Assembly (NCBI GenBank): GCA_937951615.1
Contig: CALFBH010000046.1
Location: 1 to 54,166, forward strand
Direction of reading: 5' to 3'
Length of the DNA: 54,166 nucleotides
DNA from: an uncultured Saprospiraceae bacterium
GTDB lineage: Bacteria > Bacteroidota > Bacteroidia > Chitinophagales > Saprospiraceae
In this document: in pieces, positions 1-53,008 of the stretch
How positions within the stretch are numbered: the stretch's first letter is position 1
How the letters are laid out: each line of letters begins with the position of its first letter
Program-made: the position numbers and the translations under genes
The notes under the pieces: model-generated
What the model saw: only the letters and a program-made list of their open reading frames with translations
The model's database searches: none
What the model was told of the DNA's origin: nothing

Positions 1-141
1 AGACGAAGGATTTGATTAAAATTAGTGGTTTGTCCCTGGAAATATGCTGTATTTTCAACTGAATTCGTCTGACGACAACGGAATTTGCTCAACGATGCTT
101 TGATAGAACACGACTAAAATTTTGATGCGTTTGCCCTGCTG
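1..141. repeat. Intergenic inverted-arm element, copy 1 (left end cut by window)
   Basis: Positions 1-141 match 38466-38606 with five substitutions and no gaps. The right arm TTCGTCTGACGAC is at 64-76; the last seven bases of the left arm (AGACGAA) are at 1-7, and the 56-nt spacer is 8-63. The rest of the left arm lies outside the window. The element ends just upstream of the toxin-antitoxin-like pair. Confidence 0.85.
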
Positions 142-35904: not shown

Positions 35905-37032
35905 ATGAAAAAAAATTACTTATTAGTTTTTGCTATTTGTCTATTATGCCAACACGTTCAGGCGCAAAGCATCAATAAAAGCTTCACCTATGATGGACAA
36001 ACAAGAGAATACATCATGTATTTACCTGCTGGATACACCCCTTCCGCCCAGATGCCGCTGTTATTATGCCTACACGGACTAGGAGATACGCCAGCAAATT
36101 TTCAGGGAGTAGGTTTTGATGCTATCGCCGATTTGGAAGGTTTTATCCCTGTTTATCCGGCTGCATTGGGTTCCTTTCTGGGAAATGCCTGGAATAGTGG
36201 TACGCCACTGAATACCACAGTGGATGATGTAGGTTTTTTATCGACTTTAATTGATTCGATGGTTGTCAATTATAATGTTGATCCAAGTCGGGTTTATTCT
36301 ACTGGTTTTTCTATGGGTGGGATTATGAGCAACCGCTTAGGTTGCGAATTGTCTGACAAAATAGCTGCTATCGCATCAGGTTCAGGAACAATAGCGATAG
36401 GAGTAGGCGATAATTGTAATCCATCGCGCAAAGTGCCAATGTTGCATGTACACGGCACAGATGATGGTACAGTTCCTTATGCTGGCTCTAGTACTTATGG
36501 ACTAAAATCAGTCGATGAAACGATTGCTTTATGGCAGCAACTCAATGGGAGTCCGGCAACAGCAGATTATACCATGCTACCAGATATTGCCAATGACGGC
36601 ATCACAGTAGAACGCTTTGATTACGGTAACTGCTCCGATCCTAGTGAAGTGGTGCTATACAAAGCCACCGGAATGGCACATAGCTGGATGTTTATCCCTA
36701 ATAATGACATGCATCAAAGTCTGGTCATCTGGGATTTTCTAAGTTGCCACAGCCTCTTGCCTACCAATATCGAAGGAACAATCAGCAGTATAGATATAGC
36801 GCTTTTTCCCAATCCGGTAAACGCTGATTTGCATATCCAATTTAGCCAGCCACAAAGCGGAACAGTACAGATTTTTGATGCCTTAGGGCAATCGGTACTC
36901 AGTCCACGTCCATTTGCAGAGACGAGCAATATTGATTTACCTGTACAAGACTTGGCGGATGGCGTATATTTTTTGACTGTATTTACAGGAAACGATTCAC
37001 ACAGCCGAATTTTTGTCAAGTCTGCTTATTAG
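35905..37032 (+). CDS. Secreted PHB depolymerase/feruloyl-esterase-type esterase with T9SS type A domain
   Basis: The 375-residue protein has a signal peptide ending QAQS, then an alpha/beta-hydrolase of the LpqC/CE1 type. It has the oxyanion region LLCLHGLGDTP, nucleophile Ser136 in TGFSMGG, Asp in HVHGTDDGTVPY and His in GMAHSWM. The last 75 residues (LFPNPVNADLHIQF, YFLTVFTG, IFVKSAY) are a T9SS type A sorting domain, so the enzyme is secreted or displayed. Substrates in this fold range from polyhydroxybutyrate to feruloyl or acetyl esters on polysaccharides; the exact one cannot be read from the sequence. Confidence 0.88.
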   Translation: MKKNYLLVFAICLLCQHVQAQSINKSFTYDGQTREYIMYLPAGYTPSAQMPLLLCLHGLGDTPANFQGVGFDAIADLEGFIPVYPAALGSFLGNAWNSGTPLNTTVDDVGFLSTLIDSMVVNYNVDPSRVYSTGFSMGGIMSNRLGCELSDKIAAIASGSGTIAIGVGDNCNPSRKVPMLHVHGTDDGTVPYAGSSTYGLKSVDETIALWQQLNGSPATADYTMLPDIANDGITVERFDYGNCSDPSEVVLYKATGMAHSWMFIPNNDMHQSLVIWDFLSCHSLLPTNIEGTISSIDIALFPNPVNADLHIQFSQPQSGTVQIFDALGQSVLSPRPFAETSNIDLPVQDLADGVYFLTVFTGNDSHSRIFVKSAY

Positions 37033-37057
37033 GTGGGTTCGAGTAAAGTATGGAATA

Positions 37058-37139
37058 GTCGCAAGGCGAATGTTTTTATAAAACTCTGGTGTTAGATTGT
37101 CCAATCCTGCACTTTCAATAGAAGAATTCGCCTTGCGAC
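37058..37139. repeat. Inverted-arm element, copy 2
   Basis: GTCGCAAGGCGAA (37058-37070) and TTCGCCTTGCGAC (37127-37139) pair perfectly over 13 bp, spacer exactly 56 nt. The flanks resemble copy 4: TATGGAATA before the left arm and CCGACTTTA about 20 bp after the right arm. The core CAAGG differs from the other copies, but pairing is kept. Confidence 0.85.
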
Positions 37140-37211
37140 TCTTGCGCTGCATTTATCCGACTTTAGCCTAACACTACCGCTTATTAGGGTTAGACTTTTT
37201 ATTACAACATT

Positions 37212-38273
37212 ATGAAATTACTCAAAATACTTCTGCTGCCCCTCCTTATTTTACTGGCTTACCTACTGTTTTATCCTGTACCCATCAAGCCGGGAACATG
37301 GACGCCACCCACGCCACCTGCCCTGACGGGAGATTACGCGCCTAATGATAAACTGGCTGCCATTCAGCATGTTTTTGATGGCGATTGTAAACATTGTGAA
37401 GATGTAGCCGTGGACAGTGCCGGCGTGATTTATGGCGGCAGTGAAAATGGAGATATTATTCGTATGACAGCAGATGGAAAGTCTATGGTTTTGGCAAATA
37501 CAGGGGGACGCCCACTTGGTTTGCATATTGACAAGGATAAAAATATACTGGTGGCGGATGCGGTCAAAGGGCTATTATCCGTTTCACCGCAGGGGGAAAT
37601 TAGAGTACTGGCAACAGAGTATGGCGGCTTGCCTTTTTTGTTTACAGATGATTTGGAAACAGGAAGTGATGGAATGATTTATTTCTCTGATGCTTCACAT
37701 CGCTTTGGTTTTGAAGATTATAAACTTGATTTATTTGAACATCAGCCCAATGGAAGATTACTTGCCTATAATCCAGAAACAAAAAAGACTAGCTTATTAT
37801 TAGATGGACTTTATTTTGCAAATGGTGTCGCAGTCAGCCCCGACAATTCATTTGTATTGGTCAATGAAACTGGAAAATATCGGGTCACTCGCTACTGGCT
37901 GACGGGTGAAAAACAAGGCACATCAGAAGTATTTATTGATAATCTGCCGGGCTTTCCGGATGGTATTTCGGCAGGTAAGGACGGCATTTTCTGGTTGACA
38001 CTAATCTCGCCCCGCACAACAGCTCTTGATGATATTCTGGATAAACCTTTTCTACGAAAAATAGTAGTCAGGTTACCTGATGGACTACAACCTGCACCAG
38101 AACATTATGGCTTTATCTTAGGTTTGGATGCGGATGGTAAAATTGTGTATAATCTGCAAGATCCGAAAGGCGGCTTTGCACAAATTGCCAGCGTTCAGCA
38201 GTTTGGAGATAGCTTGTATTTTGGTTCGCTTGGAGCAGAGGATGCAGTCGGAATTTTGAAATTGACGGACTGA
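37212..38273 (+). CDS. APMAP/strictosidine synthase-like six-bladed propeller protein
   Basis: The 353-residue protein has an N-terminal signal anchor (LLKILLLPLLILLAYLLF) and a periplasmic-facing beta-propeller. VAVDSAGVIYGGSENGDI, IYFSDASHRF, GRLLAYNP, FANGVAVSPDNSFVLV and ENLPGFPDGISA-like strings are the blade motifs of the SMP-30/strictosidine synthase-like (APMAP) family, which includes lactonases and arylesterases that often bind calcium. There is no Pictet-Spenglerase signature, so strictosidine synthesis is not implied. The gene is bracketed by inverted-arm elements: copy 2 upstream, copies 3 and 4 downstream. It is not part of an obvious operon. Confidence 0.85.
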   Translation: MKLLKILLLPLLILLAYLLFYPVPIKPGTWTPPTPPALTGDYAPNDKLAAIQHVFDGDCKHCEDVAVDSAGVIYGGSENGDIIRMTADGKSMVLANTGGRPLGLHIDKDKNILVADAVKGLLSVSPQGEIRVLATEYGGLPFLFTDDLETGSDGMIYFSDASHRFGFEDYKLDLFEHQPNGRLLAYNPETKKTSLLLDGLYFANGVAVSPDNSFVLVNETGKYRVTRYWLTGEKQGTSEVFIDNLPGFPDGISAGKDGIFWLTLISPRTTALDDILDKPFLRKIVVRLPDGLQPAPEHYGFILGLDADGKIVYNLQDPKGGFAQIASVQQFGDSLYFGSLGAEDAVGILKLTD

Positions 38274-38321
38274 TTTTCACTGTTTCACTAGGGCAAACGC
38301 ATCAAATTAAAAAGCAACCTA

Positions 38322-38404
38322 GTCGTCTGACGATTCAATTTATTCAGGAGTTCATCATCCTGAAAATCATCATACGTGTGGATAAGCAACCATCGTCAGC
38401 CGAC
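38322..38404. repeat. Inverted-arm element, copy 3
   Basis: GTCGTCTGACGAT (38322-38334) pairs with ATCGTCAGCCGAC (38392-38404), 12 of 13 bp, spacer 57 nt. Inside, TTCAGGA (38343-38349) pairs with TCCTGAA (38358-38364), so the spacer carries a nested hairpin. Confidence 0.8.
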
Positions 38405-38459
38405 TTTTCTTCTTCATTTTCCAAATTTAAATTTAATGCGGTGTTCAAAGTATGAAATA

Positions 38460-38606
38460 GTCGGCAGACGAAGGATTTGATTAAAAAAAGTGGTTTGTCC
38501 CCGGAAATATGCTGTATTTTCAACTGAATTCGTCTGACGACAACGGAATTTGCTCAACGATGCTTTGATAGAACACGACTAAAATTTGGATGCGTTTACC
38601 CTGCTG
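38460..38606. repeat. Inverted-arm element, copy 4, with conserved right flank
   Basis: GTCGGCAGACGAA (38460-38472) pairs with TTCGTCTGACGAC (38529-38541), 12 of 13 bp, spacer 56 nt. From 38466 to 38606 the sequence matches 1-141 of the window with five substitutions, so this copy and copy 1 were duplicated recently, including 65 bp beyond the right arm. Confidence 0.85.
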
Positions 38607-38613
38607 TTTCACT

Positions 38614-38740
38614 GTTTTTTTTTGCGTAGCAAAAAAAAACAACCATCGAACAATGCAGCAATGAAACCATCGAACAATGAAACCATCTAGCGAAACCATG
38701 AAACAATGCAGCAATGAAACCATCTAGGCAATCGAACAAT
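38614..38740. repeat. Perfect T-tract hairpin followed by GAAACCATC/GAACAATG array
   Basis: GTTTTTTTTTGC-GTA-GCAAAAAAAAAC (38614-38640) is a perfect 12-bp hairpin with a 3-nt loop. It is followed by about 100 bp of short interspersed units (GAAACCATC, GAACAATG, GCAGCAAT). Layout matches 9241 and 39949. Confidence 0.8.
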
Positions 38741-43577: not shown

Positions 43578-43610
43578 GTTTTTTAAACACGTTCTAAATC
43601 CCATATCCCT

Positions 43611-43649
43611 GCGGGAGGGGCGTCCTTCAGGATAAGAGGCGTGGGAGGG
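43611..43649. repeat. GC-rich dispersed repeat, copy 2
   Basis: GCGGGAGGGGCGTCCTTCAG and GATAAGAGGCGTGGGAGGG match 52655-52694 and, less well, 7525-7563. A TTTAAACACGTTCT motif (reverse of AGAACGTGTTTAAA) precedes it at 43582-43595. Confidence 0.8.
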
Positions 43650-43677
43650 CAATACTAAATCTGCTCAAATCCAAGTT

Positions 43678-52628: not shown

Positions 52629-53008
52629 AAAACGATTCGACCGAATGTATTTATGCGGGAGTGGCTTCCTTCAGGATAAGAGGTGCGGGAGGGGCAAAAA
52701 AAATAAGGCATTCCACCGAAGTGGAACACCTTTCTCTACTTAAGCACTCATGAAGCCTCTTGTGTGCATTATTTGAGGATGATGAATAATGCAACGTATC
52801 ATTTTTTGGCAATCATTTCTCAATGTTGATTGATTGGATTGTCCGTGTATTTTTTATATTTGTGTTTTTTGAATACGGAAAAATAGTACTAACATTTAAT
52901 TCTTAATTTCCTGTACTCATAATTTGAGACGGGACAGGTTTGGAAAGTCACGAAACTAGAGAGGTAAAAAAGTAATTGCAAGAGAAAAAGAGTTTAATTT
53001 ATTGATTA
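52629..53008. other. Gene-free region with GC-rich repeat and hairpins
   Basis: This 380-bp stretch has the GC-rich dispersed repeat (52655-52694), TTCCAC-CGAA-GTGGAA (about 52712-52727), GCATTATT/AATAATGC (52766-52792) and a TATATTTG at about 52855-52862 on the plus strand with no gene after it. I see no coding sequence. Confidence 0.6.
52655..52694. repeat. GC-rich dispersed repeat, copy 3
   Basis: GCGGGAGTGGCTTCCTTCAG and GATAAGAGGTGCGGGAGGGG closely match 43611-43649, and share the TTCCTT(C/T)AGGATA core with 7525-7563. Confidence 0.8.

Follow-up and report, generated by a model that had tools for sequence, protein, structure and literature searches.

A probable MITE family built around a REPIN-like inverted-repeat core in an uncultured Saprospiraceae bacterium

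The window analysed here, a 54,166-nt stretch of DNA from an uncultured Saprospiraceae bacterium, contains two complete inverted-repeat elements, MITE-1 and the composite MITE-2. MITE-1 (A type) occupies positions 37032..37178 on the forward strand (147 bp), with boundaries read from the sequence around a match of covariance model R1 at 37031-37178 (130.5 bits). Its IS1-like outer ends, GGTGGGTTCGAG and GGTAGTGTTAGG, are flanked by identical copies of an 8-bp target-site duplication, GCTTATTA, at 37024..37031 on the left and 37179..37186 on the right. The element lies at the stop codon of the open reading frame at 35905-37032; this codon (37030-37032) is still TAG, made up of TA from the duplication and the first G of MITE-1. 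Inside lies an 84-nt module (37057..37140, forward strand; 86 bits with the inner-module model R2), whose arms, AGTCGCAAGGCGAAT and ATTCGCCTTGCGACT, pair over all 15 bp across a 54-nt spacer.

MITE-2 spans 315 bp (38289..38603, forward strand) and has outer ends NAGGGCAAACGCATC and a 9-bp target-site duplication, CTGTTTCAC, at 38280..38288 and 38604..38612. Of its two modules, C (38459..38542, forward strand; 85.8 bits with R2) has arms GTCGGCAGACGAA and GTCGTCAGACGAA with one conserved mismatch and is enclosed by degenerate MITE-1 ends at 38437-38580 (R1, 111.7 bits). The B module (38321..38405, reverse strand) has arms GTCGGCTGACGAT and GTCGTCTGACGAT, read on that strand, around a 57-nt spacer, and gave no match to R2 at E ≤ 1. 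Similarity between the B and C spacers was 7.0, compared with 2.7 (standard deviation 1.4) after shuffling, and one of 300 shuffles scored as high; B is probably a diverged cousin in reverse orientation. By a simple pairwise score, the B and A spacers showed no similarity over shuffles, and the A and C spacers of the window resembled each other no better than shuffles did (67 of 300 as high). Short direct repeats, AACCATCGAACAATGCAGCAATG, lie directly to the right of MITE-2 at 38641-38724.

Positions 1..138 on the forward strand hold the right-hand portion of another MITE-2, truncated at the end of the contig; it includes most of a C module (1-77; 70.1 bits with R2, 5' end missing) and an end repeat at 124-137, and is 96% identical over 141 bp to 38466-38606. 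The first-pass annotation had described four separate elements of one architecture, each bounded by 13-bp complementary arms at a fixed distance. Reading of the sequence agreed with the arms, spacers and pairing given for the three complete ones (13 of 13 bp at 37058-37139 and 12 of 13 at both 38322-38404 and 38460-38541). The left arm of the fourth, at 1-76, is reduced to its final 7 bases by the contig end, and the identity of this copy to 38466-38606 means that it is not an independent example. Nor are the four separate, as 38322-38404 and 38460-38541 are parts of one composite and 1-76 belongs to a truncated copy of it, and boundaries set at the arms are too small, the modules being parts of larger elements that have outer inverted repeats and are flanked by target-site duplications. 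In this assembly, contigs repeatedly start or stop inside these MITEs (e.g. C1, C14, C34, C39, C44, C59, C65, C99 and C102), which are a likely cause of the assembly breaks.

Further copies were found by a genome scan. The arm-spacer-arm pattern occurs 59 times on the forward and 62 times on the reverse strand of the bacterium's own genome (6.96 Mb in 142 contigs), with some of these matches being CATCGACC tandem repeats, and a reversed control gave none. Tandem CATCGAC repeats lie beside AGTCGAGTGCCGAAAGGCACTCGAC hairpins in contigs C6, C11, C23, C26, C34 and C41 of this genome; although picked up by the pattern, they seem to have nothing to do with the MITEs. The pattern search covered 198 genomes of the class, this one included, and gave a match in one other, of unrelated sequence. 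With model R1, counting both strands and scoring at most 150 candidates, at least 129 matches were found in the own genome and at least 146 in each of two further Saprospiraceae MAGs, CALIZI (G198) and CALHBW (G199); a further 12 genomes of the class gave no match. When model R2 was run on 395 genomes of the class, scoring just 11 candidates in each, the own genome alone gave matches, a shallow search that does not make absence from the other 394 firm. An exact 17-base part of the MITE-1 end occurred in 10 stretches of the genome_contigs collection: seven came from CALIZI and CALHBW, six of these with a whole MITE and its arms and one (L126) with one end and one arm, and the element was missing from the remaining three, which belong to other taxa (L125, L128, L129). 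Two 15-base patterns matched 35 and 99 stretches of viral contigs.

Alignment A2 comprised 18 of 26 MITEs; A3 comprised 150 of 183 matches, representing 106 distinct places of which 105 were complete (L245 and L079 being the same); and A4 comprised 35 of 36 nonredundant modules, L076 being excluded for its 13-nt insert. The fixed spacer suggested by the window extends to the family, since 104 of the 105 distinct complete modules, drawn from three genomes, have spacers of 52-55 nt under a 15-nt arm definition, and the one outlier has 67 nt.

Copies outside the composite are bounded by the outer inverted repeat GGTAGTGTTCGAYTAAAGTATG, which gives elements of ~148 bp, and the commonest outer ends, GGTAGTGTTCGA (GGTAGTGTTCGAYTAAAG), accompanied by an 8-bp duplication, resemble those of the IS1 family. 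Exact 8-bp duplications were present at 29 of the 59 copies, out of 106 distinct ones, that passed an end filter (two are inner parts of composites), compared with 4 when flanks were swapped in all 3422 combinations; allowing one mismatch, the counts were 40 of 59 and 51 of 3422. MITE-1 of the window was scored as a miss by this automatic count because of its altered left end. Among 13 elements with MITE-2-type ends, eight showed exact 9-bp duplications, which never arose in 500 swapped draws. In five of the 13 elements the interior is different and lacks the B/C arm core, and MITE-2-type ends therefore serve other MITEs too. Other MITEs with AGGGCAAACGCATC ends, at L100 (2978-3229), L101 (2921-3173) and L102 (2376-2575), have 200-253 bp of unrelated sequence inside and likewise lack the B/C arm core.

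The elements thus have the terminal inverted repeats and fixed-length target-site duplications of MITEs, and like them are short (~148 and ~315 bp), multicopy, mostly intergenic and devoid of a transposase gene; no open reading frame of 80 aa or more spans the element in the 66 rows assessed, and a neighbouring reading-frame call enters it in 11. The outer repeats, the 8- or 9-bp duplications and the matches counted in the own genome bear out the earlier suggestion of a mobile unit, and the duplications support movement by transposases acting on the outer ends.

Searches for a parent pointed to the IS1 family in one of the three genomes. In the own genome there was no match to NF033558 (IS1-family transposase) among the best 10 of 12 candidates, and one protein query found no IS1-family transposase in G199. 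In G198, a weak PF12762 match led to an IS1-family element (NF033558, 202 bits with a cut-off of 100; PF03400, 88.6 bits with a cut-off of 24.1) with ends GGTAGTGTTACAG and GGTAGTGTATCGG and the 8-bp duplication AATTTTTC. Relatives of IS1 on a Nitrosococcus plasmid (GGTAGTGTTCAAAAAGTA) and from Waddlia (GGTAGTCCTAAACATGTA) also have 8-bp duplications. Terminal GGTAGTGTT(C) and exact 8-bp duplications are common to the MITE-1 type and the IS1-family elements of G198 and the Nitrosococcus plasmid, which suggests that the MITE-1 outer end belongs to the IS1-family type, even though the match covers just 9-10 bases. The likeness to the single-ORF type of the IS1 family consists of these terminal bases and duplications, as at L133 and L135, and the rest of the ends differ. 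Unlike IS1 elements, the MITEs have no transposase ORF, and the arms (five types tried, up to three mismatches) were absent from the terminal 120 bases of the three IS1 elements. Elsewhere in the class, 20 loci with IS1-like genes (L141-L159, L161) showed no clear end pairs of this type, and four IS1-like copies on cyanobacterial plasmids have GGTAGT or GGTGGT ends without a clear duplication.

An autonomous partner with matching ends was not found in the own genome with PF01609, PF12762 and NF033558, nor, with Y1_Tnp also searched there, were transposases for the other outer-end types. Many MITEs outlive their autonomous partner. A DDE_Tnp_1 parent was rejected as these ends are missing from the single PF01609 gene in the own genome, and an IS1595 parent as PF12762 gave no match over the cut-off in three genomes.

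The module occurs within three unrelated kinds of outer ends and in a fourth, composite case. Besides its occurrence within MITE-1, it lies within GGCTATCCGTCTAAGTTTGC (GGCTATCCGTCTAAG) ends in eight elements of G199, four of which have an exact 8-bp duplication (a count without swapped control); in the same genome, 15 of 43 modules have no recognisable GGTAGTGTTCGA- or CCCAAGTTGAATATGTAG-type end, and several of them look like decayed MITE-1. In G198 the module is found within CCCAAGTTGAATATGTAG ends, in two complete elements (L453, L445) and two cut by contig ends (L437, L454), with no clear long duplication at these elements. The composite MITE-2 is explainable by simple nesting, since its C module retains remnants of MITE-1 ends. 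The own genome also holds a CCCAAGTTGAATATGTAG-ended element without arms (L013), and at L034 (1342-1679) MITE-1 is inserted into a CCCAAGTTGAATATGTAG-ended MITE, a nested insertion.

Comparison of the parts of the element showed that the arms vary least. In 86 of the 106 copies (type groups of at least five, smaller groups being excluded), the arms were off consensus in 21 of 2230 cells (0.9%), compared with 542 of 4809 (11%) in the spacer, 413 of 3000 (14%) in the outer repeats and 282 of 2381 in the linkers, with a possible bias to intact arms as most copies were gathered by models that include them. Private changes numbered 19 in the arms, 102 in the spacer, 89 in the outer repeats and 67 in the linkers, and Fisher p values against the arms were 7e-5, 3e-8 and 6e-7 for the spacer, outer repeats and linkers, respectively. 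When copies were instead fetched by their outer ends (30 loci of the own genome), 18 elements had both ends, of which 15 had perfect arms and two had one change; the remaining one, L089, has an unrelated interior and no arms. A spacer-only search of a 0.5-Mb sample of contigs gave eight matches at E < 0.01, mostly of one type, among which no armless copy was found, the arms being seen as far as the contigs extend. Exact arms in the same sample plus the window occurred 28 times as pairs; a further four lacked an exact partner, and two of those four lie at contig ends.

Arms also change in concert. The arm types include GTCGCAAGGCGAA and GTTGCAAGGCGAA, each with both arms alike, GTTGTCAGACGAA, likewise alike, GTCGGCAGACGAA paired with GTCGTCAGACGAA, and CTCG variants, and by reading of the sequence the arms are themselves imperfect palindromes (TCGTC-A-GACGA). 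In the 35 nonredundant modules, the 13-bp arm helix was paired in 93.6% of cells, compared with 85.2 after shuffling, two-sided changes affected 33 cells (10.6 shuffled) and one-sided changes three, and the covariation score was 0.212, compared with 0.086 shuffled and at most 0.083 when slid. No excess was seen in the pairs with two-sided change (5 versus 4.0, with 97 of 500 shuffles as high) or in further pair types (8 versus 9.6), so that the helix lies above shuffles on three of five measures; the first alignment, of outer and inner helices, behaved in the same way. The claim that sequence changes while pairing is kept is upheld and extends to the two further MAGs, and the covariation rests on few independent events. 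Because G-U intermediates are scarce, DNA symmetry, a paired binding site or template switching fit better than RNA pairing.

We consider it likely that these elements are a MITE family with a REPIN-like inverted-repeat core and that DDE transposases mobilise them in trans. As MITEs, they would be non-autonomous relatives of insertion sequences, with the transposases recognising the outer ends and acting in trans. Each carries an 84-nt REPIN-like module with two near-identical inverted arms of 13-15 bp at a fixed distance, and these arms may be two copies of one DNA site needed for amplification, either bound by a protein at both arms or folding into a hairpin in single-stranded DNA. Selection on the arms, perhaps aided by template switching between them, would then keep them alike. 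The arms most likely provide a site required for amplification, a role suggested by sequence conservation that exceeds that of the outer ends and is kept across different ends, and the inner hairpin may itself be under selection.

The usual definition of a MITE rests on its ends, between which lies filler. In the present elements the interior is conserved and the ends differ. Bacterial MITEs such as NEMIS, ERIC and Nezha, which are listed in PMC3733652, are similar in belonging to a 70-300-bp non-coding class with end inverted repeats, target-site duplications and many copies; what sets the present elements apart is a further inverted repeat in the interior, which varies less than the outer ends and is common to elements with unrelated ends. 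No published description of this element was found among titles and abstract openings in the open literature, which does not prove its absence from print. If confirmed, the family would be a naturally occurring and testable example in which a structural or protein-binding core helps elements without genes to spread under several transposases, and would connect MITE biology with a REPIN-like architecture that lies outside the context of RAYTs.

A further-reaching version, which we regard as possible and put forward tentatively, is that selection acts on the 84-nt inverted-repeat core as a replicator in itself, one that has been captured by, or has exchanged, up to four unrelated sets of transposon ends (GGTAGTGTTCGA, GGCTATCCGTCTAAG, CCCAAGTTGAATATGTAG and composite AGGGCAAACGCATC) and so parasitises different DDE transposases in turn, with its arms near-invariant.

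Mutation rather than selection could also keep the arms complementary, if template switching copied one quasi-palindromic arm onto the other, a process that the accessible text of PMC8794818 proposes to create and maintain hairpins. The preponderance of two-sided over one-sided changes would be expected from it. However, such copying accounts for the identity of arms within a copy and not for their near-invariance across copies when the spacer varies far more, and the C type retains one arm mismatch, at arm position 5, in all three genomes, making template switching on its own an unlikely explanation.

The resemblance of the module to REPINs raises the question of whether it is a REPIN proper, that is, whether a RAYT-type tyrosine transposase moved a REP doublet that was later trapped in DDE-type MITEs. 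REPINs are described in the available part of PMC3116915 as 71 bp long, with two invariant 16-mers, compensatory changes and a critical spacer length, and the arm-spacer form of the module parallels this account: the first bases of two conserved inverted arms lie ~69 nt apart (~70 nt in both systems), the spacer is of fixed length and less conserved, and changes are two-sided. The imperfect palindromy of the arms points the same way. Nevertheless, we doubt this origin. None of the four Y1_Tnp genes of the own genome has paired arms within ~1.5 kb, a lone arm-like site with two mismatches near one of them (L058) being the sole trace and the other three having none, so that a RAYT gene flanked by the repeats was not seen there. 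The arms begin with GTCG, GTTG or CTCG and not with the GTAG-type tetranucleotide, the modules are surrounded by transposon-type ends with duplications, and no bare module with a clean boundary of its own has come to light. CGTC-tagged REPs, for which PMC3733652 finds no transposase devoted to them and mentions Bacteroidetes as one of the phyla, share with many of the arms here the motif CGTC; those REPs have 8-9-bp stems, 4-5-nt loops and mostly CCA-type tails as described there, which is not the form of our module.

Still less probable, in our assessment, is that the module serves the host as a hairpin in transcribed RNA, for example by protecting mRNA ends or in processing or termination, even though both strands of four folded MITEs were more stable than shuffles (z -4.0 to -8.1; for the whole of MITE-1, -5.66 on the forward and -4.00 on the reverse strand) and the copy in the window lies at the 3' end of an open reading frame. 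Any good inverted repeat folds well, and RNAalifold predicted no helix beyond the arms and none in the loop. The first-pass annotation had offered an RNA hairpin as a selected feature; the arms do pair, but the scarcity of one-sided changes, and with them of G-U intermediates, counts against a simple RNA hairpin. No Rfam family exceeded its gathering score at the modules of the window or of L171, L173, L205 and L233, where only tRNAs were reported. Gene context showed no marked preference, with 40 tandem, 13 convergent and 13 divergent placements in a rough count of 66 of 107 rows in which one copy was entered twice (as tandem and as divergent). An intrinsic terminator was rejected as no T-run is read after the stem.

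Protein coding was not supported, since the two partly open frames of the module contained stops in 9 and 11 of 28 rows (those of the 35 that are exactly 84 nt), 24 and 40 of 500 column shuffles performed equally well, and variation at codon positions 1, 2 and 3 (0.439, 0.361 and 0.386 in one frame; 0.386, 0.361 and 0.439 in the other) showed no clear third-position excess.

Apart from the MITEs, a 51-nt repeat, TGCGGGAGNGGC..., occurs in the window at 43610-43660 and 52654-52704, the two copies being 82% identical.
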